From Bryum argenteum (lineage: Eukaryota > Streptophyta > Bryopsida > Bryales > Bryaceae): a stretch of DNA of 64,000 nt. Location of the stretch: contig CM073321.1 in NCBI GenBank assembly GCA_037043015.1, positions 33,892,101-33,956,100 of the forward strand, given 5' to 3'. Shown one piece after another: positions 10,903 to 58,409 of this stretch. The notes under the pieces are model-generated. The model saw only the letters and a list, made by a program, of their open reading frames with translations, had not been told where the DNA came from and made no database searches. Both the position numbers and the translations under genes were made by a program. The first letter of the stretch is position 1; each line of letters begins with the position of its first letter.

Positions 10903-11577
10903 TCAAATTATCATCAAATAACATATTTCGTTAAAGTGAGAATATTTCTATTATCATCGGCCTAAATTCCACAAAAAGGACTATAGGGCGACCTAAAGTG
11001 AAAAACAAGAAACTCAAAACTCTCTAATATAAGCAAAACATCCCATTAAAACAAGAAACTCAACTATATTGAGAACATATATTTGGAATGGTCAAAACAC
11101 ATTCCATATCTAATCTGAAAAGAATAGCACATCAGAACGGAAAACACATTAAAATGAGAAATCAGAACAATGTCAAATATTACATATAGTTCTAAACATA
11201 CGATTCTATGTAATATATCAGTTACAATACAGTTCCGCTACAAAAAAATTACACCAATCTACTTATCTAATTCTGCCTAGACATGAAAACTCTAATCAAC
11301 TTCAACGTAATTGAGCTTAAATCCAATTTGAGCAAAAATTATGGACGAGCTCTTGCCAACTTTGTCCTACATACTAACTAAAGCCGCGATTGACTATTTA
11401 GGTTGACGTGAGCTAAATACCAATGCTTCAATAACCGAAATGTTTCTTCCTCCTCCGCCTGAAAACCCACGATACTTTGTTGCTCTTCTCCACTTTGTCC
11501 TCTATAATAGCTAAAGCCGCGATTGACTATTTAGGTCGACATGACCTAAATACCAATGTCTTGAGTGATCAAAAATC
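10903..11577. other. left subterminal region; tandem 133-bp repeat with two dyads 3' of the DUF7869-like gene
   Basis: This is AT-rich sequence without a gene. A 133-bp unit beginning AAAGCCGCGATTGACTATTTAGG occurs twice, at about 11380 and 11513. Each copy contains one 9+3+9 dyad, at 11397-11417 and 11530-11550. Placed just beyond the stop codon at 11578, these dyads could mark the 3' end or terminator region, or act as transposase-binding subterminal sites. A further half-site, GCGACCTAAAG, occurs near 10989. Confidence 0.6.
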
Positions 11578-14513
11578 TTATTCCTCCTCGCCCTCGAAAT
11601 GCAGAATACTTTGTTTGATGATAATAACCTGTTGCTCAGATATTGAGATTGTTGGACGTTGAGAACCAGCTTTGGCACTCGATTTCCAAGCTGTAAAAAT
11701 AGCACCTGCATATAGCCAGACCGGGTCATGGCTGTCATCAAAGACCCATTTAAAGTTCTTCTGTGTGTCCCAGCCAACATAGGTATCTTGAACAAGAGCA
11801 CGCTTGCTAAAAGGTTTAAAAAATTGAATTTGAATACATCCCGGATTGTTGCGATCTACATCGAAATCAGTCAAAGCCCTCGCAATCCAAAAAGGTCGAG
11901 CATCTCCATCTGCAGGACGTAAAGCCAAAAAGTAGCCGGCAAATACATCTCGACCAACGCGAAAAGACTCTCTTGGTTTATCACACAAGCGGCCAATAAA
12001 ATGGGGGTCTTGCCCATATTCCTCGCGTAATTCGCCTGTGTGCAGATATTCTCGAATCAACGGTACTCGAGACAAAGGCCAACATCCATTCTTTAAAGTA
12101 GTAGAAACCTCCATGGGTGCCAACAATAAATCATTTACTGCACGCCAATATCGTAAAACAGAATCATGTCGTCGACGAAATTCTCCTGACAAGTCTTGAG
12201 CACATGAGGTTTCCCACAACTTAATGAACCCTGCTATACCTTTCACAATTTCATCGAGATTCTTCATAGGAATTGACGCTAGAGGCTTCATTTCTCCCGT
12301 AGGCAATAGAGGCATGCCAGTAATAGAATTCTCTTTCCACAATTTTATTCCTTCACAAGTTGATGGAAGCCACTCATTGTCGGAACATAACATCTTGTAC
12401 TTCATCATGGGCCACCCGTTGTCATGTTTGAAAAATTTGAATTGTTGTCCTTCCGAATGACCAACGAGAACTTCGTCTTTAGAAGCAATGAAATCCTTGA
12501 TATATCCTTTGAAATCGGGAATCTCCTCAATCAGATGTGGAATAACTGGGAGTGCCTCAGCATCCATGAAAGATTTCATAAGAAGAGGAATTGTCAAATA
12601 GTCGTTCTCCTTTAAAATCATACTCCAACGTCCAAAAAGAGCGTCAATATCTTTATGAGTATGCCCAACTAAAAGAAAATTGACGTAAATTTCACGGAAA
12701 ACACCCATATGTACCAGAAGGGACCAAAAACAAAACATGAATCGATTTTTGTTATCGGAGGCGGTGTTGTCAAGTTGCACATGTAAAACAGGAGGAAGGG
12801 ATTCCGTAGCACCTGATGACTCACTCTCAGGCAAAAGAGAGTTTAAACAAGCATCTTTACCGATAAGCAAAGCCTCAAACAAAGGATGCGTTCCAGATCC
12901 AGCAAACAATGACTTCGAATGTGATATCGGAACTCCTTCTAAATCTCGGAGAAGCTTCAAAATAGATCCAACAGTGTGATTGCAATCACTCGGATAAATG
13001 TCAAGTCCATAGTGAGCATAACGAACATCGCAATGTCCGTGGGCAATCATTCCCGTCACAGCAATAGGGAGCTTCATAAGCGCATCATTTGTTTTTGTTT
13101 TGTGAGAAAACAAAGGACAAGCCGTTTTTGCATGATCCATTTTGTCGTGGATAATGCAAAGAACATCTTTGGGCCTTTGAATAGATAAAGAGCGGTTTGT
13201 ATAATAATACTCACGATGTGTTCGCTGATGGTCCAAGTGCAGTTTAAGCTTTTTGATCCACATGTTCTCTTCACTTGAATCTGGCACCATGGACTTGATC
13301 ATGGTCTCAAGTTTATCACACGTTGCACATCGTGCAAAATTGTCTCCGGGTGCTTTCTTCGAATACTCGGAGAATATAGTTCGCCTAATCTTGCTGAGAG
13401 TACTTTGAGCAATGAATTTCAGCCCCAACCTATCGTTGATAAGATTGATATCTGGGATCGTATCTTTCCATTTGAAGGACGAAGGCAATGACCGTGATAC
13501 TACTTTGAGTCCATTACTCAGCATCTTCGCTTTGTGCGGCATATGATCAGCTGCGTTGTCGATTAACACTTTCAGCGTTGCAGCAGCTTGTTTCCAATGA
13601 AGTCGTGGTTTCTTCGAGCCAACATTCCCGTGATGTCGAGCCCGTAAGCCAGCAGCCGCCTCTCCTTTCTTCCTGTAAAACGTTGCAGGAGGAACTCCAG
13701 TAATATTCTGCCATGCTCGAGCACAAATATCAATACCTTCCGTTGTAACCATCATACTTCCGTCAGCAGTTTTATGAAATCGATGATGTACATCAATCTT
13801 AAAGTGCGCCTTGAACTTAAAATCAGAAGACTCGTACATTTGCTTTCTCAAGGTGAGAATCTTCTGGCGAGGGAATGGCTGACAGCAATTTTTACTGCAA
13901 CACTTCATACTTGCAACCAAATTGACAGACTCTACGGTCAATAGTTGCTCTTCCCTCCTAGTTCTCTGAATCTTTGGATGTCTTTCTCCCAAAGTATACG
14001 GACGAACTCCTTTCCTCTTTGGTTGATCACGAGCATAAACCGCAACATTGTATTGCTCCCGATGCAAATGATCAAGTAAAGACCAACCATCATGAATGGC
14101 GTGGCTGAGATCCCATTTTAATGACTGAAATATTGTATCAGAAGGCAGAAACTCTAAATCCAAGCACTTTACGATCTGAACAACTACTTGATCATCTCGC
14201 AAAGGCTCGTCATCAGAACCCAGTACACAATCAGATCCCACACTTTGACAAATACCCTCTGCAACAGCGGCCCCTCCATGATTCAATAGTGTCACAAATT
14301 TGGTTATCCATTTGCATCTCGGGAGTCCAGGACAATCCTTCAAACGATCCGGCAGAACAAGCTCAACATCTTCCAAATCCTAATAACCAAAAAACAATTA
14401 CGTTAAACAAGGAACCACCTTAGACGTTGATGGAAACAAAGCCGTAAAGATTCTAATACCTCTGAAGAAAGACCTCGATTGTCCCAGTCGTCATCGGACG
14501 CACTACTCGCCAT
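11578..14513 (-). CDS. DUF7869-like protein, transposase candidate (951 aa, two coding exons)
   Basis: The start is ATG at 14513 (MASSASDDDWDNRG). Coding exon 1 ends at 14460, an 80-bp phase-0 intron (GTATTA to ATTAG) follows, and exon 2 runs 14379-11578. The frame is fully open for 951 codons, the best-preserved gene here. Around residue 170 is a Cys cluster (CCSKNCCQPFPRQK). Around residue 240 is CARAWQNITGVPPATFYRKK. Mid-protein is CATCDKLE. At about residue 560-610 come LHVQLDNTASDNKNRFMFCF and then FLLVGHTHKDIDALFGR. This order, cysteine module, ARAWxxxxGV...FYR, LDN...NKNR, LVGHTHKDID, matches the DUF7869 family found in many eukaryotic repeat-rich genomes. The conserved Asp/His residues suggest an RNase H-like recombinase fold, but that is inference. 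Upstream, in its probable first intron, lies the left 30-bp array. Two dyads lie 3'. Intact coding suggests recent activity or selection. Confidence 0.8.
14380..14459 (-). other. 80-bp intron of the DUF7869-like gene
   Basis: The donor GTATTA follows codon GAG (14462-14460), and the acceptor ends TTATTAG before GAT at 14379. Phase is 0 on both sides, so the reading frame passes cleanly from LSSE to DLEDVEL. It contains no dyad, unlike the larger introns of the ParB-MTase gene. Confidence 0.75.
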
Positions 14514-14679
14514 GTAGAGCGGTCACACCCTGATTATAGCTCCGTGAATAAGCTATACAACATGACAAAAGATACAAATAACCATTAGTAAAAATGAGTA
14601 CGCAAACATGAAACCTCAGAACATGCTGAGAAAAACCTATGGAATTAGTAATAAGGATCGACCTAAACACTACGTTTAC

Positions 14680-15960
14680 CATACAGCAACCTAACCACTG
14701 CCTCAAGTTGGGTTCGACCTAAACATTCCCTGTTTAGCAGGCAGCGACCTAAACACTGTGCGCTGATAACAAAGGCGTCCAAACACTTCGTGCAGATCAG
14801 AGAGTACTTACAACTGTGCGTTTAGGAGGCAACAACCTAACCATTGCGTAAAACACGCAGAGACAACTAAGTGCTCTTAGCAGGCAGGGACCTAGTCACT
14901 CACTGAATAGCAGGCAGCGACCTTTACACTATGTTCAACGCCATACACACCGCTTATTTACCAGGCACCGACCGAATATCTCTGCGTTAAGCAGGTAGCG
15001 ACCTAATCATACTGCACATAACAAAATTGACCTTACAATGTGCGTTTAGCAGACAGCGACCTAAACAATGTGCGTTTAGCAGACACCGACCTAAACAATG
15101 TGCGTTTAGCAGACAGCGACCTAAACAATGTGAGTTTAGCGACAAACCCTAAACAATGTGAGTTTAGCGACAAAATGACCTAAACAATGTGCGTTTAGTT
15201 TAGCAATGACCTAAACACACTAGGTTAAAAAGACATCGACCTTTACAGTGTGCGTTTACCAGCCAGCGACCTGAACACAATGTATTTAGCTGACATTGGC
15301 CTACAGAATGGGCGTTTAGCAGACAGCAAGCTAACACTGCGTTAAGATGGGAGAGTCAAAACCACTCCGTTTATGAAGTAGCGACCTAATACTGTGTTAA
15401 ACAGGCATCGACGTTTACACCATGCGTTCAGCGGGTAGCGACCCTAAATCTGTGCGATTAGCAGGCAGCAACGTAAAGCTCTGCGTTTAGCAGGCTGCGA
15501 CCTAAAATTTGTGCGTTTAGCAGGCTACGACCTAAAATCTGTGACTTTGGCAGGCTGCGACCAAACAGCTATTCATTTGTGCAGGACACGAAAGTCATGC
15601 GGTTAGCGGTCGGACCTACCAACATGCGATTAGCGGTCGCGACCTAAAAGTCATGTGCGTTTAGCGGTCACGACCTAAAAGCTATGCGTTTAGCGGTCAC
15701 GACCTAAAAGTCATGCGTTTAGCGGTCACGACCTAAAATTTGTGCGTTTAGCAGGCTACGACCTAAAATCTGTGACTTTGGCAGGCTGCGACCATACAGC
15801 TATTCATTTGTCTGGGACCTGAAAGTTGTGCGGTTAGCGGTGTCGACCTACCACCGTGCGATTAGCGGTGCGCGACCTAAAAGTCATGCGTTTAGCAGTC
15901 GCGACCTAAAAGTCGTGTGTTTAGCGGTCACGACCTAAAAGTCATGCGTTTAGTAGGCAA
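14680..15960. repeat. left 30-bp dyad array
   Basis: About 40 imperfect units have a period near 30 bp, for example around 15055-15135 where three consecutive units are almost identical. A typical unit reads TTTAGCAGG, CAG, CGACCTAAA and then a short linker with GTGCG. Read on the minus strand it is CTAAACGCACA plus TTTAGGTCGCTGCCTG, the same unit as the right array. The array therefore lies in inverted orientation to 24385-25645. It sits upstream of the DUF7869-like coding exon 1, between a probable leader donor (GTAAGC near 16205, minus) and the coding start, so it is probably intronic. Confidence 0.9.
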
Positions 15961-15980
15961 AATAGAAAATACCAGATTTT

Positions 15981-16060
15981 GGGACCTAAATGCACACCCA
16001 TCGACCTAAATGCACATCCATCGACCTAAATGCACACCCATCGACCTAAATGCACACTGT
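15981..16060. repeat. four 20-bp half-site repeats, left
   Basis: Four tandem 20-bp units have the consensus TCGACCTAAATGCACACCCA. They hold only one half of the dyad (CGACCTAAA) at 20-bp spacing. The mirror image, three units of GTGCATTTAGGTCGATGGGT, is at 24310-24363. They mark the inner edge of each 30-bp array. Confidence 0.9.
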
Positions 16061-16189
16061 GATTCTAGTATTTCTAGGAAGGTAAAATGAATCCCGCGGG
16101 GAAGTCGCAAAGAGCAAGATAAAAGAACAAATCAATTGCGCATGGATTTGCAATTGCGTATGGAAATGGCGAACCTGATACAGAGCACC

Positions 16190-16705
16190 AAGAAACCCTA
16201 GCTTACTGACGAACACCGTGGAACAGAGACCGAATGCAAGAGCAAACGCATGCAGCAAATCGATGAGGAGATGGTGCGCATTGACGAGGAGCGGAGCGCT
16301 GACAGGACGCAGCGGAGCGGAGCGAGTGAGTCGCGCGAGCGAGCGGAGTGCGCCGGGCAGACGCAGCTGAGCGAGCGCGAGCGAGTGAGCCGCGAGCGGA
16401 GCGGAGCGCGCTCGCAGACGCAGAGGGAGCGTAACGAGTGGGAGGGGTGGCTTGGCGAGCAGAGCGGCCCGAGCGCTGGCCGGGATCGGCCGGGCGTAGC
16501 GAGCCGGGCCAGGGCCCCCGGCCGGCACGGCAAGGCGGGAGCCGTTCGAATTCGGGCGGGAAGCTCCCGCCAACGGGCGGCGGGTCGCCGCCACGCTTTT
16601 CATGGCGCCACGCTCGGCCGCGCCTTGCGACATGGCGGCGTGGGTCGCGCCGAAGCCCAAGGGTGCCCACGGGTGCCCGGGGGTGCCCGAATCGCCCGCT
16701 GCCCC
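16190..16705 (-). promoter_or_regulatory. GC-rich leader/promoter block of the DUF7869-like gene (inferred)
   Basis: This CpG-rich segment contains simple GAGCGGAGCGAGC-type repeats and abruptly borders the AT-rich core at about 16706. On the minus strand its 3' part is pyrimidine-rich. It contains GTTCGTCA followed by GTAAGC (around 16208-16201), a plausible donor for a leader intron that would contain the left array. It mirrors the right GC-rich block, and both inner edges carry GGGCAGCGGGC or its complement. Promoter role is inferred from position and composition. Long open frames here arise from GC bias. Confidence 0.45.
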
Positions 16706-18750
16706 AGATTATTTAATTACGACATATATTAAAATTAGAAAATTAAGACATAATTTTGTATTGCAATTAACTGATTTGTTACAAAATCATTGATAAAAAT
16801 TTTAATTCTACATAGGTTAATAAATAATTTACTACTCTTTCTATCACAAATTCTAACGTTGTGATAAATTATTCACTTTAGATCAATCTCAAAAGAGGTG
16901 AATAAAATTAATTCATACCGAATCATAGAATAACACATTCTAAAGAACTAAATTATTCCATACCTAGAATAGTATATATACTTTACGAGTTACTAAACTT
17001 CGAATATTGATCATCAAATAACTCATTTCAAATCTTAGAATATTTATCTTACAATATCTAGATTTGTATCGTAATGAACCAATTTTTAATCAAAATTCTT
17101 ATATATTATAGCTATTATATCAAACTTCATTTACGTAATATTTATTTTAGTATACCACAGCAAATCTAGTAAATAAATATAATAACAAGACAAAACATAA
17201 TGTACGTAGGTAATAAAATTTGAATATTGCAATTACAACAATTTTAATCATAGAATACCTCTATTAGAAATTATTAGTACTAATATATGTACTAATAATT
17301 ACTGAACCGTAATGTTATTTTCCATGTACTTAGATTAGAATATTTTTATCACTTAAAATAAATAAACACAGGAATTAGGGTTGTACTACTTATTAAATGT
17401 TTGAAACCTAATTATTCTTATATTACGTCACCGAATTTAGTAAGAATTATGTTAATATAAGTTTATACTTATTTACTAAATACTAACTTAAGTATACTTC
17501 ACTCTAAATTTGATCAGACTATTATCTATAAAGGAAAAGCAAATAATTTAATATTATTTTCATACCATTAAAGATGTAACAAATATTATATTTAAACTTA
17601 TTAGATTATAAAGATTATTAAGGCTTTAAATAAAGTATAACTATTTATTTTTATAACTTTTTGTAAACTAAATCATTCCTATAACTTTTTAGAAAAATTT
17701 AATATTTTTCAGATAATAAATTCATCTTATGTTGTTAACTTTAATATAGTCTTCAGCTTATTACGTATCATTTGATATAAATTTTTTATAGATGTTCTAT
17801 ATTATATTTATCAAAAACGTATTTATTCACTAAAATACTACCTATGATTCAATGTATAATATAAATACATGAACCAGTTATAAATCATCAAAATGAGCGT
17901 ATATTTCTCTATATAATCATTAAAATCAAACAAAAAAACATAAATTAAAAAACAGGAATAAAAAATTTAAACAATCAGAGTATTTTAATGTACATAAATC
18001 TAAGAACAAATTAAAATATATTTTAAAAGAGTAAAGTTATTCTTAAATTTTATAGAATTTTATAATACTCAAATGTAAATGATAAATCAAATTTTCATAA
18101 ATAAATAAATAAAGAAATATATAAACACGATTTTCAACTTAAATATTTATTTTATATTAAGTTAGATATACATGTCATTCGTATTAAACGGTCAACTTAT
18201 ATTACGGTATAATATTATGTTAATATATACTTATCTACTTGCGTCGATTTTACCGTAGTAGTAACGGTAATTTTTTTACGACAACTTTAATATCCATACG
18301 ATTACATTTACATTAAAATTTGTGACAAACATACACTTTTTTTTATTGAGTTATATTATAACTCGGATCTGTTGTTTGAATGAAGTTTGCGCAAAACTAC
18401 CTCCACATAAAATTAGTATAATTTCGTTCAACTTATAATCTCAATATTTTGGACGTTAGCTAGTGTATAAGCGCGACATATGCAAACACCATTTTGCAAT
18501 GCAATCACTCTTTCATTTACAACGTTTGAATAAGCAATTTGATGCTTTCAAATGAAAACATATATTTCCGAGAAGAAAAAATTTTATCAATTATCGCTAA
18601 GTTGTATTGTAACTAAAAGTAAAGGTACATTAACTTAAATCAATACGAATTTATAATTGTACAAGAGAGAAAATTTAATCTATTGTGACAATTTTTAATT
18701 AATTAACCATTTTTAATATTACTTATTTTACAACGTTATATGGTGTTATA

Positions 18751-18781
18751 AGCGGGCATCAAGAGGCAGGTAGGGCAACCT
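18751..18781 (+). repeat. 31-bp GC-rich direct repeat, core copy
   Basis: The segment begins AGCGGGCATCAAG and ends GGTAGGGCAACCT. It matches 23356-23386 with one mismatch in 31 bases, in the same orientation, 4.6 kb away. The copy at 23356 lies inside a GC-rich tandem block, while this one is isolated in AT-rich DNA. It may be the remains of another leader edge or a conserved site. Confidence 0.8.
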
Positions 18782-19104
18782 AAAATATTAATCAAAATCT
18801 AATTGTGAGAAATTAAAACTATTAGATGTTTATGTCTTGGATTATTTGATCTTGTGTAACCATAGGAATAAGAATTATGAAAAGTAATTAAAGAAATGTA
18901 ATTTTTTAGTACTGAACGTTTTTGAACTTAAACTTAGGATTAAAACACGTAATTCGTTAGAATAGGAATATTGATATTATGAAATTGATGAAAATTGGGC
19001 TACGTTAGAACAAAATATATTGTGAGAATACATCTAGTTCGACCCAGATTAAGCACACATTTATGCAGTATTTAACTAAAATTACTTTCGATCTATTTAT
19101 GGTT

Positions 19105-19155
19105 TAGGATTTAGAGTTTTGAGTTTAGGGTTTAGGGTTTGGGATTTAGGGTTTA
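19105..19155 (+). repeat. interstitial telomere-like tract
   Basis: Degenerate TTTAGGG units occur here (GTTTAGGGTTTAGGGTTTGGG). TTTAGGG is the standard land-plant telomere repeat. A similar tract is at 59495-59540. The array is too short and degenerate for a chromosome end. It could reflect repair or simple-sequence growth. Confidence 0.7.
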
Positions 19156-19193
19156 TACTAATTATAGAACGCACATTCTTCATATTTAGTCAA

Positions 19194-19343
19194 AACACGT
19201 AATACGTTATAATGTGAATATTAAGATTATCAAATTGAGCTTGGTTTAAGTCAAATGTACTGTGTGTGTACATTTAGCTCGACTCCACCTAAACCAACAT
19301 TTCTCAAAAGCAGTGATAATACCATTATAACGAATTAAGTGTT
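19194..19343. mobile_element. 150-bp MITE with termini related to the giant element and TCAA duplication
   Basis: The left end (AACACGTAATACG...) differs from the giant-element terminus at 3 of 28 positions. The right end is a degenerate inverted copy ending AAGTGTT. TCAA flanks both ends (19190-19193 and 19344-19347). One 9+3+9 dyad lies inside at 19273-19293 (TTTAGCTCG, ACT, CCACCTAAA). A decayed relative starts at 18944 (3 mismatches of 28), exactly 250 bp upstream. The MITE shows that these termini, a 4-bp duplication and the dyad belong to one family. Confidence 0.8.
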
Positions 19344-19592
19344 TCAAATATGTAATATATTTCAATCAGTAAATAATTATATGATATTGAATTACAACAC
19401 TTTTTACGATAAATAATATCTATATATTCAATGACAATTTTTCTCATTGTTTGCCTTAGAGAAGGTGTATTCAGCGGTTGTTTCTGACGTCATTCCGAAC
19501 AATCGACTCACTATCCGATTGGCACTCTTCTACGCGTTAACTACCTCATCAGCTTTTGAGCTCACGTTCTTTCATTATGTTGTCTGGACGAA

Positions 19593-19988
19593 GTGACGAA
19601 CTTTTCAGAAGATCACTTCAATAAATTCCTAAGTAGCAACAATGTACATACATCTAAGGGATTCAATACAACACTTTCTATAATGAGCGGCATTACTAGA
19701 AGTTCTTACTTTGTCATTAATGATGAACAATCGAGCTGTAAAAATCCGACTATTGAGAGTGCGATCCGAGAGATTGAGTCTGATTATTGAGGTGTAGAGT
19801 ACAACTTACTAGTGTCGATAGGCATTAACGATGTGAAAATCATGGAGTTTAAAATTTCTGAAGAAAAACTCGAAGTGCTTTCTATGTTGCAGAAGAGCTT
19901 ATACTTTAAGAAGACTAACGCACTAAGTACTCAGAAACTCACCACTCTATTGCCATATCCACCTGTTGAATCTTTCTTTCAAAGTTGA
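19593..19988 (+). pseudogene. unidentified gene relic in the AT-rich core
   Basis: One frame reads about 65 codons (TNFSEDHFNKFLSSNN...), has a TGA at 19788-19790, and continues for about 65 more codons (GVEYNLLVSIGINDVKIME...LEVLSMLQKSLYF) to a TGA at 19986. Amino-acid composition is protein-like, in contrast to the surrounding AT-rich noise. I do not recognise a family and see no splice sites of note. Confidence 0.3.
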
Positions 19989-22900
19989 AATGAATCAGCA
20001 TTATTGAGACCTTTTCAACATCGGCAAAGCATTCGATACGTAGTATGTTCAGCGATTTAGGTTCATGGCTGTCTACAACGATGAATTCGCTTGATGTCGA
20101 GTGGGTTCTAACTCTCTACGAATTGTGTACCTATGTTATTTAATTTATTAAGTTTTAAATCTGGGCAAACAACGTCGTACGCGGAATCGATTGTACTAAC
20201 GTTTACGAAAACATAAACCAATGAATTGCTTATGAAAATCGAAACGAATGAAAGTATTCGATCATACATAATCTATTTGATGTTTCATCAATATGAATAA
20301 ATTTATCAGCTGGCGTGCACTTTAATACTTTCTTACATTTATTAGAGGAAGTGAGAGACGACATTCGACTCGTGTTCAGTTTCAATTTAGTGCAAAAAGA
20401 TTGCAATATGCCTTATATATTTTGCATTCTTCTATGTTGAGGAATGTTACATTGCTACATATATGATAAAAGATTGTGGAATCGTGAAATACAAAGTTCT
20501 TTCCTACCATGTTTGCAATTGTGTTTCTGATAGAACGAATGCACATAAACGAATATCAGTTTTGATACATACGAAGAATGAAGAATTATGAATCTTTATT
20601 TATTGTAATCTGTGAACTTTCATTAGTTATACATTGAAATTGTTTTATACACACTTTATTGCTTATTGGAAATACACACATTATTTATTTGATATATAAC
20701 GTTACCAATATGATATACACCGTTTCTTGTTTGGTATATAACGTCGTTTAAAAAAACGAAAAAAAACTAAGAAATGATGTTTAGAAAAAGAAGAAATGTA
20801 ACTTAACGGAATTATTTTCATTTAAAATCTACTTTAATTGTAAATGCTTGCGAATATATATCATATAAATTAAATGTTGATCAAGTTTGCAATTTAATTT
20901 AACTGACTAATATCTTAAAGATTTGTAAATTTGAAATATTCATACTTTTATGAAACAAATAAACTATTTTACTCTATTTATCAAGGAATTATACTAATTG
21001 TTATAAATTTTAAAAAAAGAAGTAAACCAAAAAATGAATAACTAAGAAAAATTATTAATTCTGATTAAACTAAAAATTAACGCGTATAAATTATATAATG
21101 TAATATATAGAGTTATATCAGTATTACATCTATACGGTGTTTACTAATTAATAATGTACAGAATGAATGAAATATTAAAAAATGATGAAAATATAGATTA
21201 ATGAAACGAAGACCTAAATTTCATTATTTGTCTATAGAAGTATCATTTTATGATACTTATTAAAAAAAAAAAAAAAAATTGTGGAAGTGGAAAGAAATAT
21301 TAGTAACATAATCGCATCTAGATGTAATGTTAGGATTGCAATTGAACTAACTAACATTATTTAATAAGGAAGGCATGAAAAAGTAGAATGTAAATGTAAT
21401 AACAGTTTAAACATTCAAAATATATTAGAAAATGAAATGAAGGTGTTATTTTTGTATTTTTTGTTTTGAAGTTTAAATTTACGTAACTCGATTTATAGCA
21501 AATAATCAAAGTATTTAGAATACAACTACAATAAACGTGTAGTTACAAATATATTAATAACAAATGAAATAGTTGAATTCGAGCTAATAATGACTATATA
21601 GAAATAGTACAATTTGGACAAAAACAAACGTATAAAGCAAGTAGTGTATTAATTTATATGAGTTGACGAGATTTGAAATTCTTAAAACTTGAAAAGTAAA
21701 AAGAAGAACTTAGATGTTTTATACATTATGAACATATTTATCATGAAGCATCGTCTTAATAACTGTATAATTATCGTAAATATTGACTTGTGTGTATTTG
21801 AACAATGTTTGTAAATTATGTATCATTTGTTTTATAGTTAATTAGGTTATATATAATCTTTAAAATTTTAGTTAGTACTTGTAAATAATTATGATTAACT
21901 AAAATAATTCATTATATGATTATCTTTTGGGCTATTTCTAGCAAAATAGCACATTTTCATAGAAATCATTTTAGCTAAAAATCATTGGAAGCTTGTGTAA
22001 GTTAAATCGTACAAACATGTAATACTCTTATCGAAGATACAGTCAACCAATATTTGGAATCTTATAAATTGGAAGATCATAACATAGTAATATCAAAAAT
22101 AAACTGCAAAATTTTATTATTTATATTTTGAGGTAAAATTGCTACTTATAAACATATTGCAATGAAATTATAACCAACGGGATTTAGTTGTTCGCATTTA
22201 TTTTCATGAGATTTTTATTCAAGTAAAATACACCAAATAAAATTCTTGGCTAAAATAAAAGTCATGCAATGGTAAAACTACTAAACATTAGAAATTATTG
22301 GAACATAATTTTCTTAGTTAGTAATTGGAAATAGTTATCTTTAAGTACAAAGTAATAAAGTAGAAATAAATAATGAGAATTTATAATATTTACGTCTAAT
22401 TCTTACAATAAGAAAAATTAGAGGTGTTTGTGATTGAAGGCTTATTTAGAACAATGTACGAAAACAAAGACAATGCTATGAATAGAATGGCGTTTATAAC
22501 TTAACATATTTGTACTATGTTACAAAATGAATAAAAAAGTAACTTTCATAATTTGCTGATTGCCCTTTCAAATTGGGGTTGGATCATTATCCGCTTGATT
22601 GAACTCATTGGGGTTAAATAAATCTCAAAAAGTGTAGTTAAGTGGTTTAGAGAATATTCTATAGCTTAGAAAATTAATAAGTGTAGACATTTTGTAAGTA
22701 ATGAAAGTGCTAAAAAAACATACAAAAATAGATATTCATTTGTGGATTAGAGTGATTGAATTTAACAACGTGTAGCAATTTAAGCCCTAAAGACTCGAGG
22801 AGTTTGAAGAAAAACTTAGATGTGTTATAAAATATGAATTCGATAACCTTTATGAAGTAGCGCTTCAAAGATAGTATAAAAATCTTATTCCCTAAATTAG

Positions 22901-23349
22901 ATCTATACGGTTAAATTTTCCCAAAATAAGTAAGATTCATTTAATAATTAAATAAAGAGAGTAAAACTTTGAAAATCCATATAAAGTTTAATTTCTATTA
23001 TTAGTATTTGGAAATTTCTATGATTGACTAAAATCACATATTATATGATAAAATGGAGAGAGGCTACAAGTAAGCTATGAGAAACCTTATTAGTTTCCCT
23101 AAATAGTAAATTTTCTTACACTAAGAAAACTTTGCATTATTTGTGTTTGAAGGCTTATTGTGAACAATATATGAAATGAAATGGGATCTGTAAATTGGGT
23201 GTGGTTCCCAACTTACCAAACTTTTGGAATGTTAAAAGAAATTCCAAAGAAATTCTTTTTTTATCCAAGTAGAACCTCCCAAAAATCGGGAACGACCATA
23301 AAATGGACTTTTGGGCTCTGCGGGATTAAGTACTAAAATATTACATTGT

Positions 23350-24199
23350 TTGGGCAGCGGGCATCAAGGGGCAGGTAGGGCAACCTGGGCAGCGCTGCCC
23401 CATCACGGACGGGCAGCGGGCAGCCAGGGCACCCTGGGCAGCGCTGCCCCATCACCCAAGGGCAGCGGGCAGAGAGGGGCAGCCCGGGCAGCGCCCTTGC
23501 GCCGCCGATAGCCCGTGGAGCAGCCCGAGCAGCCGCCACGCGTCGGGGTTTCTTGGGCAGCTGGCGGGGTCGCCGACATCTCCCGCGCAGGCGCCCCGCC
23601 GACACTCGCTCTCTTTTGTTTTTTCGTCACAGCTCCTCGCGTTTGTCGTTTCTAGCTCCCCGCGTTTGTCGTTTGCAGCTCCGTGCTTCTTGTTTGCCAT
23701 TGCCGCCGTTTGCAACTCCCGCATTAGTGTTCATTTCAGCTCCGCCGCCGTTGCTTGTTTGCATTTGCAGCTCTTGCGGCGTTTTTTGTTTGCATTTGCA
23801 GGTCCTCGGTCCGCCTTTTGCTGCTCTCCGCCCTTTTGCGCCGATCGCGCTGTGTGTGTGCTGGGTTTCGCCTCGCCCTCCTCTCGCGGCTCGCGCACCT
23901 CCTCGTTGCGGCCCTGTGCTTCCGCAGCTCTGCTTTTGATCTGCTCTGTTGATCTGCTCTTCTGATCCTCTGCTTTTGTTGCTCGCCGATATTGACGCCG
24001 TTTTCTTCGTTGCCGCAAACCTTTTTCCGCGGTCCTTCTGGTGGGTGTTTTGAATTTGTTTCATCTTCACATTGTTTCTCTCCTTGTGTTCCATCTCCTT
24101 ATCTGTGTTTCTAACCCTGATTTTGTGGCTAGGGTATCTGCGCATTCGGACTGCTACTTTGTGCGCTCTAAAACGGCCTTTGCTTTCTCCATATTTTTC
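23350..24199 (+). promoter_or_regulatory. GC-rich repeat block plus pyrimidine-rich leader of the ParB-MTase gene (inferred)
   Basis: The first 150 bp are GGGCAGCG-type repeats that border the AT-rich core. From about 23600 the plus strand becomes T/C-rich with few ATGs in good context, typical of a plant 5' leader. It ends in TTTTTCAG followed by GTATGC at 24200, a plausible splice donor. The next strong acceptor is TTGCAG at 25380, so the intron would contain the whole right array. The left side shows the same arrangement, mirrored. Transcript evidence is needed to confirm the leader. Confidence 0.45.
23356..23386 (+). repeat. 31-bp GC-rich direct repeat, leader copy
   Basis: This copy is partner to 18751-18781 with one difference. 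It begins a run of shorter GGGCAGCG/GGCAGCCAGGGC repeats, about 23350-23500, at the edge of the right GC-rich block. Confidence 0.8.
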
Positions 24200-24309
24200 A
24201 GGTATGCAATTTGTTATAGCATTGCAATTTGAACGCAATTCCATTTGAATTTGATGTTGCGTTTTGCAACCTCTCAGCACGATTAATTTTCCATAACTAG
24301 AATAAGATT

Positions 24310-24363
24310 GTGCATTTAGGTCGATGGGTGTGCATTTAGGTCGATGGGTGTGCATTTAGGTCG
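24310..24363 (+). repeat. three 20-bp half-site repeats, right
   Basis: There are three tandem units of GTGCATTTAGGTCGATGGGT, the exact mirror of the four units at 15981-16060. Each carries one half-site, TTTAGGTCG. Confidence 0.9.
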
Positions 24364-24384
24364 CAAAATGAGAAAATTCCTATT

Positions 24385-25645
24385 TCACGAGCTAAACGCA
24401 CATCTTTTAGGTGGAAATTTCTGGTATCTCCCATTTCACGAGCTAAACGCACAGCTTTTAGGTAGCTGCCTCCTAAACGCACACTTTTTAAGTAGTTGCC
24501 TCCTAAACGCACAGTTTATAGGTAGCTGCCACCTAAACGCACACCTTTTAGGTAGTTGCCACCTAAACGCACACTTTTTAAGTAGCTGCCACCTAAACAC
24601 TCACTTTTTAAGTAGCTGCCTCCTAAACGCACAGCTTTTAGGTAGCTGCCACCTAAACGCACATCTTTTAGATAACTGCCTCCTAATTGCAAACTTTTTA
24701 GGTATCTGCCTCCTAATTGCACATTATTTAGGTAGCTGCCTTCTAGACGCACAGCTCTCTCGTAGCTGCCTGCTTCATCAACTGCTTTTAGGTAGCTGAT
24801 TTCTAAACGCACAGCTTATACGTATCTGCTTCCTAAACGAACAGATTTTAGGTAGCACCCTGCTAAATGCACATTTTTAGGTAGTTGCCTCCTTAACGCA
24901 CATCCCGTACGTAGCTTCCTCCTAAACGCACAGATGTTATGTACATACCTTCTTATCGCAGATCTTTTATGTACGTGCCTGCTTAACGCTTATCTTTAGG
25001 AAGCTGCCTGCTAATCGCACATCTTTTAGATAGCTGCTTGCTAAACTGACAGCTTTTAAGTAGATCCCTGCTAAATGCACTCTTTTCGGTAGCTGCACCC
25101 TTATTTTACAACTCTTTCGTAGCTGCCTCCTTTACACACTGCCGTTAGGTATCTGCATTTGAAGCGTACCTTAGTATTGCTCATCTCTTACCTAGGTGCC
25201 TGCTACACACCGGTTCTATGTAGGTGCCTGCTAAACGAACATATTTTAGGTAGCTGCTTGCTAAACGCACAGTTCTTTCGTAGATGCCTCCAAAACGCAC
25301 AACTGTTAGGTAGATGCCTGATATTGCTATGCTTTTAGATAGCTGCCTGCTGAACGAACAGTTATTGTGCTGAATTGCAGACATCGCTCGCACCAAGCAG
25401 ACCGCTACAATTGTTCCCGCTCCCGCAGAGAGGGACATCCCTTCTGGGAGTCATGATGAATCTCATGACAATCAGTTATGATTTTTTCTTGTACTTTAAT
25501 GGTTTGTTTTAGAATTCTGATGTTTTGTTTTTAAATTCATATCTAGTGGATGTTAGGTAGATGACATCATAGCGCACATCTTTTAGGTAGATGCCTGCTG
25601 AACGCACATCTTTTAGGTAGATGCCTGCTAAACGCACATCTTGTT
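24385..25645 (+). repeat. right 30-bp dyad array
   Basis: About 35 units occur, with an exact 30-bp period from 24390 to about 24880 and looser spacing after that. A typical unit is TTTAGGTAG, CTG, CCTCCTAAA, then CGCACAGCT. The unit is thus a 21-bp dyad plus a 9-bp linker. A 30-bp step is close to three helical turns, so bound proteins would line up on one face of the DNA. The last units (25550-25640) flank the H3-like exon on its 3' side. Because 30 is divisible by 3, the array creates open frames of decapeptide repeats on both strands, which I regard as a by-product. Confidence 0.9.
25380..25475 (+). CDS. possible coding exon with a histone H3-like ARTKQTA segment
   Basis: After a good acceptor (GAATTGCAG ending near 25380) the sequence reads DIARTKQTATIVPAPAERD followed by IPSGSHDESHDNQ before a TGA at 25478. 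Positions 25386-25406 encode ARTKQTA, identical to residues 1-7 of mature histone H3, with codons typical of plant H3 genes. The exon lies between the array and the ParB-like exon. I could not find a donor that joins it in frame to the exon starting at 25662. The best donor (A/GTTATG at about 25474) gives the wrong phase, so an extra exon or a frame lesion would be required. Coding status is therefore uncertain. Confidence 0.35.
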
Positions 25646-25661
25646 GCTTCTTTAAAATCAG

Positions 25662-27017: not shown

Positions 27018-27222
27018 GTAAGTCTTGCATTTGTTCATAATTTTCTCTGCTTGATTTGTGGCGTTTAGGTCGACGCCACCTAAGTTCCAGGTGTTTAGAT
27101 CGATGCGAGCTAAATTCTGTGCGTTTAGGTAGACTCGACCTAAATTCCGTGCGTTTAGCTGGACTCGAGCTAAATGATCATCCCGTCATTTTCTTGAATT
27201 GATGTCGACCTTTCGTTTTCAG
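27018..27222 (+). other. intron of gene A with four dyads at 30-bp spacing
   Basis: The donor is GTAAGT at 27018 and the acceptor TTTTCAG ends at 27222, phase 0. Inside are four 21-bp dyads starting at 27064, 27094, 27124 and 27154, exactly 30 bp apart, the same period as the arrays. Their half-sites vary in matched fashion (GGT/ACC and GCT/AGC forms). Confidence 0.85.
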
Positions 27223-28550: not shown

Positions 28551-28807
28551 GTAAGTTTGTCATTCCTTTGGGCGTTTAGGTTGATGCCACCTAAATGCCT
28601 GTTTTTGTCAAGTTCGCATCGTCTGTTCCGTATTACTTGTCATCTTTATTCGTCTCTATCTAAATTACACTTGATTTACTTGGCGTTCGTCAGACTTGAC
28701 AGTGATTTGGGCGTTTAGGTCGATGCCACCTAAATGTCTCTTTATTTAAGTTCACATCTGCTCTTCTGTTCTTCTTTGTGGACTAACTTTGTGTTTTCAT
28801 TTTGCAG
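28551..28807 (+). other. intron of gene A with two dyads
   Basis: The donor is GTAAGT at 28551 and the acceptor TTTTGCAG ends at 28807, phase 0. Dyads lie at 28575-28595 (TTTAGGTTG, ATG, CCACCTAAA) and 28714-28734 (TTTAGGTCG, ATG, CCACCTAAA). The two are nearly identical and lie 139 bp apart. Confidence 0.85.
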
Positions 28808-30947: not shown

Positions 30948-30978
30948 GTAAGCTTTTTATCAATGGTTGCAAATGTAT

Positions 30979-30999
30979 TTTAGGTCGGGTCGACCTAAA
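30979..30999. promoter_or_regulatory. 21-bp dyad downstream of the last large exon of gene A
   Basis: Reads TTTAGGTCG, GGT, CGACCTAAA, perfect in both nine-base halves, 27 bp inside the intron whose donor is GTAAGC at 30948. It lies between the MTase-like exon and the HAD-like exon. Confidence 0.85.
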
Positions 31000-31486
31000 T
31001 TTCTGTTTATCTTGTTGATGATCATCTACTCAAATTATTCTCTGCTTGTATCATTTTTCATATTGTAATAATTTTTTAAGCGGCGCTCCTTGTTTTACTG
31101 AGTCCGGCATTGAAGACGGCGAGTAGGTCTTGCGAGTTAGTCTTCGAATTATTGGATGGTGTGCCACGATTGTAGATATTACCATGTAGTGACTCCCCAT
31201 TCAATAAAATGAAGACTTTTTTATTTATCACTTCCGTCGCCGCATCGCGTCCGCGTCGTTCTTCCTCATTCTTGGCGCTAAATATCGTCATTCTTCTATC
31301 AGGCCGCGCCTCGAGTACCTTATTCCGTCCGCTTGCCACGGATCCCCACCGACCACCTTGACTCGTGCGTCGGTGCGGTGGTCGATCCTCAATCACTCCG
31401 GCGATCATTTGCATGCTTCCGCATTTCACAAGGTAACACTCTTGTTTTAATATCATCCACTATTGTCATTGGTCGTCGCTGCGCAG

Positions 31487-50379: not shown

Positions 50380-53271
50380 AAGACAACCCTGGTCAGGATG
50401 CATTCGGTTTCGAAAAATCTGACACGAAGATGGAGATTGACACCATGAAGATGATCGAGTCACCTCCAGAATGGACAATCTGTGCATTCGAGAAGAAGAG
50501 CAAGACAGGCTTGATGAATTTTCTCATCAATATGCCTAACAGATTGTAGAAGCAAACGCTCTGCGTAATGCCAAAATTAGAGGTGAACCCGACCTGCTTG
50601 GCTGATATGCAAAACTGCAAGTTTTCGATACTCAACGGCCAACACAATGTTCAGATCGTAGAAGCAAATGCTTGAGACCAACGTGTCCGAAACAATTTGT
50701 AAAGACTTCCGGAGGTGGCAAGCGTTTGTAGTTTGGACAAAGGATGAAGCCAAACTCCAAAAACTTTCGGCGTTCTATAACAGAGTGAATCATTTTACCC
50801 CGTTTAAGCCGATGTGGGCATCGAACATCCTTGCCGCCCGCATGATATGGAAGAACTAGGGGCGCCCCCCTGACAGGCATGCAGCAGCTGGGGTGGCGGA
50901 CAAACGAGTGCAAGCAAAGCGTGTTGTGTCCATGTATGCAAATTTTGATGTAAGAATTAGTTCAAGTAGCACTGCAACTCTATCTTTCTAAATTGTCAAT
51001 TATTTATCATGGTAGTTTAACTTGCTCAAGCTAAAAAGATGTCAGTTGAGCTCGAATTGAGCTAAATTGTCACTGCAGCTTCATCAACTCCTACAGTTCT
51101 ATCTGCATTGATTCTGTCCCCCTAAGGCGCACTTTAGCTCAAGTCGAGCTAAAGTGATCACTCACTTATACTCCGGAATCGTGTGACTGATTTATCGTGG
51201 CAGTTTAGCTCAAGTCGAGCTAAAATGTTGTTGCTGCATCATCAACCCAACACTTCTTACAACCACTCCTTCTAGATTTCAAATGCACACTTTAGCTCGA
51301 CTCGAGCTGAAGTGATCACTCTCTTATACTCTGAAATCTTACACTCTAGTTCTGTAGCATTGCAAAAATTCGTTGAATCAATTTGAGATAGGTTCTCCAT
51401 GATTGATGTTGCCAAGGCCCAAGTAGAGGTGAAGAACAAGGTCTTGTCCCTCACTAATGAGCTAAAGATCATTACCTTACTTGATGATCTCTGGGATCCA
51501 TGGACAGAGTTGATTGGAAGTGTCGCTCAAGGGACCCTTATCAACCCCTACTCCTTGAAGAAGTTGTGTGACAAACTAGGGTTCAAACGAGATAATGACC
51601 AAACCCTGTCGAGGGAATTCTTTGAGAACCTCCGTAACCTTTTAGAGTCGGACCAAATAAAACTTTGTCCACATATGCTCAATACGTCGGGTCCGTCTTA
51701 GAAACTGGAATATCCGAAGGTTACTCTCAAACAACCAGCAACCCTTCTTGAAGATTGCTACTCCGTCAAGGAGTACGTTGAACGGTTGAAGCAGAAGGTG
51801 AGCGCCCAGCTTCAGATCCACAAGATCCGACCCACACTCGGAATCTTCAAGAATAACAAGTTCGACGTAGATGTTTGGAAGAAGTTCAAGAAAGACTATC
51901 ACGTCACCAAGGCCTCAAAGCGCGCACTTTTGGAATAGAGTAACCTTGAGAAGTATTACATGGATCAAAGGCAAACTCAGCACAGGGATTCCCGCTGCAA
52001 AGATCTCTCTCCCTACGCAAAGAGGTTCTTTGAGGTATTCCTTAAGAAGCGCGAGAAGTTCATAGGCCCTATTGGTAGTGATCATTTTTGTTCCTTCCAG
52101 TGCAAAACACCTCATAAGCTTGGAGTTTGGCCTGGAAACTCATGGCCGAAAGATGCATCGGAGATGAACACATAGGAATCATTGACTTCAGATTGGTTTC
52201 GGGTAGTGGTAGCACCTCCGATTCCTCGCGTGACCACCCATTCTTCGAAATGTTTATAGCGACCTTATCGTCCTAGAACAAGCCAGCTCTTACAGATGTA
52301 CCGTGCTAGTTTTTTATTTGCGGGAACGACGGTGATTACGCGCAAGTTGAGGCGCTCGCAAAAAATCCAGCCTACTTTCCAGGGTCAAATTATATGTTGA
52401 TTCTATCATTGTACTATCCATCCCCGCACGAACAAATCGCTAGATACTCTGCAAAAGCAAAGCAAGCCTCAGAGCCCGTGCGTCTTCTCTTCCTGATTAG
52501 GAAAGACGTGAGACTTGCGAAAATGCCAGAGAAGGAATATCGCGCTCCAAAACACGTGCTTTACGAGAAGCCCCGAAAATACAACGAGTCTCAGTATCAC
52601 ATGTACTCGATCAAGTTAAGGATGGATTTCTATCTGCAGGTTATCCAGCTTTTTTGTAATGAACATGAGAATATTTCGCATGTCTACGCCGGCAAAAAAG
52701 CAGTCAACGCAAGCGTCGTAAGCTTCCCTCCACTCCAGTTGATGAGCAAAATATGGGATTCGACAGGACTTCTCGGACATCGTAGGAGTCGCGTACCGCT
52801 CCTAGGCAAGAAGGTGGCAGGGAAAGTACAAAGCGGAAACATAATCCCTTGTCAAAGGACTCACCCTCAAGTAGGTTCAAGGCTGAGGAGAGTGCCGAAT
52901 TTGCTGCACTACAGAGGAAGTACAACGAGGGGATGGCTTACGGGAAGAAATTGGAAGAGATCCTTGCCCAGCAGCAACTTGCGCAGCAGATGCGGGATAA
53001 ATTAGACCAGGAACGCCACAAGAAAATGATGGAGATGATGCGTGCTTTAACTTCTGGTCAGCCATTAACTTCGGTTCAAACATTGGAATTCGCTACTGCT
53101 CAGAGTGGTGATGCAGGTGCTCGACCTGGTCGTCCTAGTACTTTACAACCACTCACGTCCCCTCCGCCTCCTACTACCGAGCCTTTCGCGCCTACGCCTT
53201 CCTTGCCTACTCCTAAATTACAACTTCAGCGTGACGCAGAAGAACAATCTACAGGTCCTCCTTCAACTTAG
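50380..53271 (+). pseudogene. ParB-MTase paralog B, decayed
   Basis: ParB-like remnants are FSILNGQHNVQIVEA near 50623-50667 and WQAFVVWTKDEA...FTPFKPMWASNILAARMIW to 50859, aligned with gene A. After a 450-bp intron region with dyads, the helical part is open at 51399-51700 (KIITLLDDLWDPWTELIG) and continues past a stop (LEYPKVTLKQPAT) to about 52175. The MTase-like part includes IGIIDFRLVSGSGS near 52180, SEPVRLLFLIRKD, and SIKLRMDFYLQVIQLF followed by ISHVYAGKKAVNASV near 52690. The tail (52849-53271) has a coiled coil (FAALQRKYNEGMAYGKKLEEIL, MRDKLDQERHKKMMEMM) and a proline-rich end. There are several stops and frame changes. Motif IV (RLVSG) and motif I (VYAGKK) are both degenerate, as in gene A. 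Confidence 0.6.
51046..51311. promoter_or_regulatory. dyad cluster in the first intron region of paralog B (GCTC variant)
   Basis: Dyads lie at 51046-51066 (TTGAGCTCG, AAT, TGAGCTAAA), 51133-51153 and 51204-51224 (both TTTAGCTCA, AGT, CGAGCTAAA) and 51291-51311 (TTTAGCTCG, ACT, CGAGCTGAA). A weaker one is near 51016-51035. All have a C in place of the G at position 6 and the matching G in the other half. Spacing is 87, 71 and 87 bp. The corresponding intron of gene A carries four dyads of mostly the GGTC type. Confidence 0.8.
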
Positions 53272-53392
53272 ATTTTGGATCGAGTGTATAGTATTTAAGT
53301 TGTAAATACCGGAAAAAAACATATATAAATGTGAACTTTTGTAGCAAACTCTGAGACATTTTTGTAATTAATACAGGCCTTACTATTTGCAG

Positions 53393-53413
53393 TTGAGCTC
53401 AACCCAAGTTAAA
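53393..53413. promoter_or_regulatory. dyad between paralog B tail and its HAD-like part
   Basis: Reads TTGAGCTCA, ACC, CAAGTTAAA. It is degenerate but keeps the 9+3+9 layout. It occupies the same relative place as the dyad at 30979-30999 in gene A, between the coiled-coil tail and the HAD-like exon. Confidence 0.65.
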
Positions 53414-53856
53414 TTGTTGCCCTTTTTCCTATCTGCTTCTTGTTGGCTTCCATATTCTATTTCCTCCATCCTATTTTTGTCTGATTCTACAAATTTCTCC
53501 TACGCTGCCAGATGTAAATTTGGATGACGAGGCAATCAATATTCCAGTAATGGATGATGTCACGCTTGAATGTTATGGCCATGAGCAGATTCCATTGGTG
53601 TAGGACACACCCAAAATCCATAATGCCTCACATCTAGAGAATGACGTTGCAGTCCGTGATGACATAGATTGCACCCAACAGTCGTTCGGGTCAATGGGTG
53701 TCCAAGTTGACTTAGAAGAGAGCAATTATGATAATTAGGTATATTCAAATTCACACACTCTACTCTAAACCATCGCCTTGTTGGGATGTATTACATGATT
53801 CTGTCCTTAAATTCATCGAACTAATGACAAAAAATCTCCAGTAATTTTGTTGTAGT

Positions 53857-54556
53857 GTGCCGTTTTCTATCCAAATCAACGACGCATCGGTCACTGATAT
53901 AAGTTCTAGAGAAGGCATAGGTCACGTTCCAAGAAAATCCTCCAGTACTTGGTTAAATGTTGTTCTCGACCTCAATGGTATCCTCTGCAATTGTACCCCA
54001 TTTTGGAAAGCTAAAGGATACAGAAACCGTGACTTCCTTGTTCACTCGGCCACGTTGCCAACTGAGGTGGGGAAGAAGCTTGTATGGGTGAGGCCCAACT
54101 GTAAGGACTTCCTCTCTCGGGTGGCATCGTTCGCTACCATCACGGTTTGGAGTTTGATGATGACAACAACCACAGAAGCCATTTGTGATTTTCTCTTTGG
54201 TCCTATAAACCCTATAAGGCCCCTACAAATTCTTGGTCAAGAAGACTGTGACATGATTCCCTTGAAATCTGGTGGGAGCAGACCTTTGTTCATGGAGGAA
54301 CCGGGAACTCAGAAGTCTATCTTCCTTAAGACCTTGTCAGCTCGTGTCTTCAATAGCTACGATGGTTTTTAAACGGAGGCTAATACGCTCATCATAGATG
54401 ATAATCCGGTTAAGCACGTGCTTAATCACCGTGAAAATGTTCTACGACTACCGTCTTGGTCTGACAAGGACAATGGGGCAGATGAGAATTCTAATTTATT
54501 AGATGAGCTTTTGCCGTATCTCTTAGAGCTCCATGAGTTCAACGGTCTCGTTAGCT
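53857..54556 (+). pseudogene. HAD/FCP1-like domain, copy B
   Basis: Open from the acceptor GTTGTAG (about 53856) to a TAA at 54370-54372, then coding character continues in frame to TAG near 54556. Motifs: WLNVVLDLNGILC (nucleophile region; Asp kept, second Asp is Asn), VWVRPNCKDFLSRVASF and ITVWSL, then after the stop LIIDDNPVKHVLNHRENVL (late acidic motif) and LLDELLPYLLELHEF. It matches copy A throughout and keeps the motifs better, apart from the stop. The DLNG form is known in a plant branch of FCP1-like proteins. It may end the paralog B transcript. Confidence 0.6.
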
Positions 54557-54885
54557 AGTTTTGGTCATCGTTTATTTTGGACGTGCTATGTCATATGATG
54601 ATCGTACATTATTAGATATTTATAATAATATATAAAAGGCCTTAATAGATTGAAATATCATTTTGTGGAGTAGTTTTTGACTCTTTAGTTTAATTTTAAT
54701 TTATTCTCTTAGAATGTGAAGCTCCTGTACTGGATTAGTGAGACGTTTTATATAATTGTGAATTTTCATTTTGTGAATATGAAGACAATGTGATCTTTTG
54801 TTTTTTTTAAGACAAGCATCTCTTGCATGAATTTCATGGACTCTGGATAATTGATGATTTGTTTGGAATGTTGTTGAAATAGATT
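54557..54885. other. intergenic AT-rich stretch
   Basis: No gene or repeat supported. Probably holds the 3' end of paralog B and the leader or intron of the next gene. Confidence 0.45.
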
Positions 54886-54892
54886 ACGCAGG

Positions 54893-57665: not shown

Positions 57666-57794
57666 CTTGGGGTCCATAGATAGATTCACAAGGACCTTGC
57701 TAACTCGGAGTTGATTACCTTGAAGTCTACGAGTCCGGCAAGGATTATAGTTAAGTGGTTACAAACATCTACTCATTCATAGTCGGAACAGATA

Positions 57795-58409
57795 TTTAGC
57801 TTGAATTGAGCTAAATAGTATATAGTACCATCAGATACTTAGTTGTCTATAATAAAAGAAATTGGATGTTTATCTCAACTACAACAAAAATTGAAATTAT
57901 GTGGTTACAAATATTGACATCATTCATCTTCGTAAGAGCGATTTAGCTTGTATTGAGCTAAAATGTATATGATAACATCATGTTTCTCATAAACGTGATT
58001 TTTTCCATCTAGATGTATAGCTCAAATAACTATACAAGTAATGTAGTGATTCATCAAAGGGTGATTTACATGCTCCAATAAAGTATACCTAGCTCAAATC
58101 AAGCTAAAGAATTAATAACCTCATTTGGATCATACTACTGCAGTTAGAGCTTGAATGTTTTTCTCGAATTGAGCTTTATAATCAAGAAGTGGAAACATTA
58201 TCTGATTGATAATACTAAAGATATACCATAAACTCTATTGAGCTCAAATGAAGCTAAATAATTAGAAAATAGAAACATCATCCGGTTCATAACATTGAAG
58301 ATTTGAGTTCGATTTTTTAGCTTGACTCAAGGTAAAAATCTCCCAACATGCTAATGTTCTCATTAAACCATTATTATTAGACTCACGGTTTAGCGCAATA
58401 CAAGCTTTA
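57795..58409. promoter_or_regulatory. isolated cluster of seven dyads (GCTT/GCTC variant)
   Basis: Starts at 57795, 57942, 58088, 58158, 58238, 58316 and 58389. Each keeps 9+3+9, for example TTTAGCTTG, AAT, TGAGCTAAA (57795) and TTTAGCTTG, TAT, TGAGCTAAA (57942). Spacing is 147, 146, 70, 80, 78 and 73 bp, near multiples of 73-75. No gene is visible in or around it. It may be the intron or array remnant of a further, otherwise erased element. Confidence 0.8.

Follow-up and report, generated by a model that had tools for sequence, protein, structure and literature searches.

A 21-bp palindromic motif, referred to below as the dyad, recurs throughout the non-coding parts of a group of DNA transposons in the moss Bryum argenteum. 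It was analyzed in a stretch of 64,000 nucleotides (the window; assembly GCA_037043015.1, contig CM073321.1, positions 33,892,101 to 33,956,100 of the forward strand) and in the 258.8-Mb genome. The window holds a complete element, termed family A, that encodes a protein with the domain DUF7869 and an accessory protein with the motif DGQHH. The explanation that we favor, tentatively and with slightly less than even confidence, is that the dyad is the site of an element-encoded protein, the likeliest candidate being a homodimer of the accessory protein, which by analogy would act against silencing in the manner of the VANC proteins of VANDAL transposons.

The dyad had been described in an earlier note as TTTAGSTYG, three bases, and CRASCTAAA. 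A scan of the window with up to three mismatches returned 38 sites, against 0.35 expected from shuffled sequences. Genome-wide, the exact pattern was found 7,070 times and its reversed control not once, with a chance expectation of about 0.06 at equal base frequencies. A chance origin of the sites was rejected on these numbers. All 17 of the single positions that the note named match within three mismatches: two of them exactly (29500 and 30979), 12 with one mismatch, those at 27064 and 51046 with two, and that at 53393 with three. Two of the note's statements were too generous. The dyad was said to recur in every unit of both arrays of the element, but no array unit matches exactly; eight sites in the left and eight in the right array lie within three mismatches, and all 16 carry two or three. 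The seven occurrences given for positions 57795 to 58409 reduce to five at the same threshold. The main block of the right array comprises 21.9 units according to the tandem-repeat finder, and the array units of the window are asymmetric, reading approximately TTTAGGTMGCNGCCTSCTAAA in the orientation of the gene next to each array. The exact dyad was absent from IMG/VR, as were confirmed relatives of the DUF7869 protein (one stretch fitted the peptide pattern but failed in tblastn), and a search of Rfam gave no match. Among the open-licence PMC papers listed on moss transposons and on anti-silencing, we found no account of the motif, and there was no such paper on DUF7869.

The DNA that carries these sites is an integrated DNA transposon with terminal inverted repeats. 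Alignment of the window to an independent copy on contig C7 (C7:5900001-5950000) revealed sharp boundaries at 10875 and 33334, which delimit a family A element of 22.46 kb. Its two 28-bp terminal inverted repeats (10875..10902, plus strand; 33307..33334, minus strand) are identical, read AACACG..CGTGTT at the termini, and have a 4-bp target-site duplication, TATT, just outside; the dyads therefore sit inside a transposon of this kind. The duplications of full elements differ between independent insertions, being GGAT for the C7 copy and CAAG for an element of a second family, B (C1:507054-528556), which has the same ends (one with a single mismatch and one identical to that of family A). From the middle outward, the family A element consists of a core of about 8 kb that is AT-rich inside, an array at each edge, and two divergent genes; the DUF7869 gene runs to the left, and the accessory gene and an open reading frame (ORF) resembling NIF/CTD phosphatases run to the right.

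The spacer of the dyad, taken at first to be free, is not, since at least 5,878 of the 7,070 exact sites read TTTAGCTCGA-N-TCGAGCTAAA; A and T thus occupy the outer spacer positions in at least five in six exact sites. Judged from its sequence, the core fits a 10+1+10 palindrome with the two-fold symmetry of a dimeric protein site. The same spacer bears on another explanation, in which the dyads would function in transcripts (leader, introns, and 3' parts) as RNA hairpins with 9-bp stems and 3-base loops. On the sense strand, G-U pairs outnumber A-C pairs by 46 to 24 in all and by 35 to 16 when the window is left out (p 0.011, with the caveat that copies in tandem are dependent on each other). 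However, the A-N-T loop is itself palindromic, which is explained by a DNA site and not by a loop, and a short derivative of the element that retains a dyad has no gene. We regard RNA hairpins as very unlikely.

The half-sites had also been claimed to vary in matched fashion, which holds for some positions and not for others. Outside the core, the flanks are matched in the two big families: genome-wide, 1,221 sites carry CCA..TGG and 1,323 carry CAG..CTG flanks, whereas this mixture occurs at 3. Complementarity at offsets 11, 12, and 13 amounted to 0.75, 0.80, and 0.62, with 0.43, 0.37, and 0.39 expected (210 sites, of which three were counted twice owing to the overlap of loci L003-L005). This excess arises chiefly between families, although a smaller one is seen within loci (632/995 versus 593, standard deviation 10; 199 sites). 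Within the core, C/G at offset 5 is matched (observed 0.91, expected 0.69), mainly as a difference between family A and the others, and 41 sites show a one-sided exchange at this position. The family A variant reads TTTAGGTCG..CGACCTAAA, of which 106 exact palindromes were found; families B and C have a common core, and that of family A differs. No such matching applies to the Y and R positions (TCG to TTG), where 5,878 sites are intact, 568 are altered on one side, and 23 on both. Independence predicts about 14 double changes, so that any excess is mild; matched change was rejected here, and these changes look like CpG decay. The spacers, when examined as second palindromes, were mostly weak.

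The dyads are nearly absent from coding DNA. We determined the placement of 199 dyads (up to two mismatches) in 12 sequences totaling 214,000 bp, of which 44,371 bp are coding segments of element genes. Of the dyads, 196 lie outside these segments: they precede both genes, occupy introns, or are found at 3' ends. The three within them seem to be homologous and to mark the same position of the accessory gene, in its exon 4, in two families (window 29500; L013 4655), possibly a small unrecognised intron, with an open frame that differs between the families. Two introns of the accessory gene, that after the DGQHH exon and that before exon 4, both contain dyads in all six gene copies inspected (family A and a second element in the window, L011, L012, L013, and L016; one of the dyads, at 53393, has three mismatches). 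Both introns are of the GT-AG type in families A and B. In the window copy they span 27018..27222, with four dyads at 27064-27174, and 28551..28807, with two at 28575 and 28714 (both plus strand). The second element, part of a different family, covers 50394..54573 (plus strand) and has its dyads, at 51046-51311 and 53393, in the same two introns. The accessory proteins of dyad-bearing families share down to about 26-36% identity, and the dyads nonetheless lie in the same introns, although their spacing and the spacers vary between families.

These observations bear on two further explanations. If the dyads were autoregulatory operators, the accessory protein would repress or activate both genes from them and set copy number, leaving silencing marks untouched. 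Dimeric operators are typically palindromic, and the arrays of families A, B, and C lie immediately upstream of the two genes; the order of genes and arrays in families B (C1:506-526 kb) and C (C1:200-220 kb) is that of A, with between-array distances of 8.3 and 8.0 kb, respectively. Yet the sites of an element are many, with intronic ones, others at 3' ends, and one in the gene-less derivative, which exceeds what operators need, and we consider this explanation unlikely. The dyads could alternatively be a functionless by-product, namely, units of a palindromic minisatellite that spread by slippage and traveled with the transposons. Many dyads do form tandem arrays with family-specific spacing, and recent copies show no consistent conservation specific to the dyad. 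Against this, the core is common to families with strongly diverged accessory proteins and occurs in the same introns despite differing spacing and spacers, and single isolated dyads persist as well; a by-product thus appears very unlikely.

The note had asked whether hits cluster in copies of the element, and they do. Among the 50 dyads listed of the 106 family A palindromes, 42 lie within 8 kb of a match to the accessory gene, where 1.4 would be expected. Eight of nine loci picked for their dyads have element genes (L017 has none). Of nine loci at round coordinates, eight lack dyads and element genes alike, and the remaining one, L018, contains 6 dyads next to a DUF7869 gene. The copies are also unevenly distributed: with the family A protein as query, 78 of the best 100 matches to the accessory gene fell on C1, the largest contig, which makes up 44.1 of the 258.8 Mb (96 of 996 candidates were scored), and 30 of the 41 dyads with a one-sided exchange at offset 5 are on C1. 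That C1 is a sex chromosome is a guess, made by analogy with the V chromosome of Ceratodon purpureus, on which relatives of the DUF7869 protein occur; the other organism with named relatives is Physcomitrium patens.

A miniature inverted-repeat transposable element (MITE), about 161 bp long, shares the ends of the full element and has a single dyad at its center; its copies are spread over nine contigs (40 of 466 candidates were scored). Of 20 copies fetched, the ends were found in 14 and not in 6, and 11 of the 14 are bordered by perfect 4-bp duplications; two of these 11 have shared flanks and probably represent one insertion copied within a larger element. A MITE-like unit is present at 19194..19343 in the core of the window element; its ends are those of the terminal repeats, and it holds one dyad, at 19273. 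The dyad has decayed in some copies. In 12 autosomal copies, 10 of the 252 dyad cells (0.040) deviate from the majority, compared with 29 of 1,008 (0.029) for the rest of the unit, and this higher divergence is due to CpG (16/144 overall). Outside CpG, 2 of 204 dyad positions had changed, compared with 38 of the 1,787 non-CpG positions as a whole, which is no more than suggestive.

The MITE is also relevant to the view that the dyads are internal transposition sites on which the DUF7869 protein or a helper would build a synaptic complex. There is a precedent in En/Spm (CACTA) elements, whose TNPA protein binds many subterminal copies of a motif; the moss transposons likewise contain many copies of a motif that may be bound by an element protein. 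The mobile 161-bp MITE retains one dyad together with the terminal repeats and short stretches of unique sequence, and the window element has dyads about 0.5 kb inside each end. Most of its dyads, however, are located in two mid-element arrays and in introns rather than subterminally, unlike TNPA sites, and a role of this kind seems quite unlikely.

The protein that we regard as the likeliest ligand of the dyad is encoded on the plus strand of the window. Exon 1 (25386..25475) has degenerate edges on both sides in this copy, exon 2 (25656..27017) runs from an ORF start to a splice-donor end and contains DGQHH, exon 3 (27223..28550) has a frame broken at about 27.9-28.06 kb, and the exon 4 region (28808..31018) is an open frame with the dyads at 29500 and 30979. 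In family B, exons 1 to 3 are spliced in phase at GT-AG sites with one stop within exon 3, and exon 4 is frame-broken. The genome also contains copies whose frames are open. A 1,042-residue protein of P. patens shares 31% identity over 75% of the exon 1-3 query. Exon 1 encodes a sequence that resembles the N terminus of histone H3, which reads ARTKQTAR. It reads M-ARTKQTATIV for the C7 copy and M-PRTKQSARIV for family B, thus reproducing H3 residues 1-7 in family A and six of eight residues (PRTKQSAR) in family B; the window copy retains ARTKQTA. The corresponding search pattern matched only three places in 605,294 six-frame residues, all of them these exons (window 25386; L028 nt 9816 and L013 nt 8734, both minus strand). 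The retrieved proteins gave one further match, ARSKQ, which lies within a DUF7869 relative (P0060).

The accessory exons had been labeled ParB-like, of the nuclease/Srx sort, but neither a ParB nor an Srx profile of Pfam was matched. The exons fall below every Pfam cut-off, the window protein had no Pfam match at E values up to 10 and no PDB match, and no ParB match was obtained for the relatives tried. When alignment profiles were compared with the PDB, one gave only a match to an outer membrane protein (E 0.87), and another gave none up to E 5. The conserved part of the protein includes DGQHH, which may have caused the label. ParB/parS was accordingly rejected as a model: clustered palindromic sites are the likeness, whereas the sites here belong to integrated eukaryotic transposons with terminal inverted repeats, no ParB-family protein was detected in Pfam or PDB searches, and nothing points to the partition of a replicon. 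What stands of the earlier reading is a putative recognition site of a dimeric protein, which fits the core, the matched flanks of two families, and the near-absence from coding DNA.

The second protein, on the minus strand at 11578..14379, matches DUF7869 (PF25273, E 6.6e-42) and is presumed from its sequence to be the transposase of the element; the assignment of its catalytic residues is our own. DUF7869 was the sole Pfam match of this large ORF at an E threshold of 0.01, and the MuDR-type transposase of VANDAL elements was thus not detected; no VANC model was searched by name. A C(2)C/H(3-4)H motif following GHTH is absent from the window protein and from all 82 relatives (of 99) that bear GHTHx[DE]xD. 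That motif is of interest for Lanisha, a group reportedly described from the moss Ceratodon, where, as mentioned above, DUF7869 relatives are found on the V chromosome. Lanisha is a proposed superfamily of DNA transposons (Maumus 2020, via PMC12730594), and the passages of PMC12730594 that deal with the wider group give 5'-CA..TG-3' termini in most cases and target-site duplications of 2 to 5 bp. The moss elements are likewise DNA transposons, and their 4-bp duplications fall within this range; their ends are AAC..GTT rather than CA..TG, and the C(2)C/H(3-4)H motif is missing. Membership in Lanisha was rejected on these features, as far as they are set out in those passages.

A better analogy than ParB/parS appears to be the VANC motif system of VANDAL transposons. 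VANC proteins constitute a sequence-specific anti-silencing system of Arabidopsis (PMC5735166, PMC10398659). According to the sections of PMC5735166 on motif binding, VANC21 binds a short motif located in introns, intergenic regions, and terminal non-coding regions, VANC6 uses a different motif, and both motifs form tandem repeats. The resemblance to the moss elements, as judged from these sections, lies in a short motif, partly in tandem arrays, within the non-coding DNA (196/199 dyads) of a transposon that encodes an extra protein, and in the variation of this motif between related families, here in the CCA..TGG and CAG..CTG flanks. On the same basis, the systems differ in that the moss motif is a palindrome of at least 21 bp instead of 8-9 bases and that a DUF7869 protein takes the place of the MuDR-type transposase. 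The host is a moss, and the accessory protein, known here from sequence, has DGQHH and, in two families, the H3-like first exon.

By this analogy, the accessory protein would bind the 10+1+10 palindrome as a homodimer at sites throughout the non-coding DNA of the element (5' of both genes, within introns, and at 3' ends), and its H3-like N terminus would engage or decoy host chromatin factors. Local silencing would then be lost, the element proteins would be made, and copies might be mobilised in trans. The moss transposons would thus work as VANDAL elements do through VANC, with other proteins and another motif. A number of observations weigh against this proposal. (i) More than one flank type can occur in an element, as in L012 with both CAG..CTG and CAC..GTG; of the 19 sites with TAG flanks, 4 are fully matched, and the flanks of family A are mostly unmatched. 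(ii) As noted for the by-product, recent copies lack consistent extra conservation of the dyad, and the surplus of G-U over A-C pairs hints at an RNA role. (iii) CpG frequency, taken as a proxy for methylation, gives an ambiguous signal: the observed/expected ratio is 0.69 up to 60 bp from dyads, 0.93-0.99 from 61 to 1000 bp, and 0.86 beyond 1000 bp, compared with 0.71 in the eight dyad-free loci. (iv) Pfam and PDB profile searches revealed no recognised fold for the accessory protein, the H3-like exon was not found in any of four more diverged loci, and family B has an in-frame ATG three codons before MPRTKQ, a candidate alternative N terminus.

The remaining features of the window element are as follows. 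From the left, two dyads are present at the 3' end of the DUF7869 gene (11397..11550), and an array of imperfect dyads in units of about 30 bp lies upstream of this gene (14673..16057). The core between the arrays (16058..24308) has a GC content of 18-37% from 17 to 23 kb and a higher one at its edges. Telomere-like TTTAGGG repeats occur in its AT-rich part (19096-19155) and also in family C (L010 5969). The segment 18786-20149 of the core is 74-78% identical to L010, while the DUF7869 proteins of families A and C share about 48%; this core similarity may reflect module exchange or constraint. The right array (24309..25366) is upstream of the accessory gene, and the tandem-repeat finder placed three further units between exons 1 and 2 (25553..25642). 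The NIF/CTD-phosphatase-like ORF (31282..32319, plus strand) matches PF03031 with an E value of 1.1e-7 over 31333-32319; a gene of this kind follows the accessory gene in several families (for instance, L011 8129-8938). A last dyad (32830..32850) is close to the right end. Outside the element, five dyads within three mismatches (57795..58336) lie next to a DUF7869 fragment. A gene at 8756-9790, to the left of the element, has a relative (57116-57537) beside a DUF7869 fragment at 57 kb, and may be part of another transposon's gene. A 349-bp tandem repeat of about 3.2 copies is found at 35632-36777.

Whether or not the dyads counter silencing, the sampled palindromes of this genome are tied to a single kind of transposon and to elements derived from it. 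Beyond this, we consider it a possibility, though a rather doubtful one, that mosses have an independently evolved anti-silencing system, with palindromic landing sites, a protein that mimics the H3 tail, family-specific site variants, and a part in the build-up of the elements on one chromosome, perhaps a sex chromosome. If so, land plants would have seen repeated origins of sequence-specific escape of transposons from silencing, each time through unrelated proteins and motifs, and the moss version would combine the recognition of DNA with mimicry of histone H3. This would also offer a testable reason for the crowding of elements on one moss chromosome and a compact palindrome usable to direct chromatin states.

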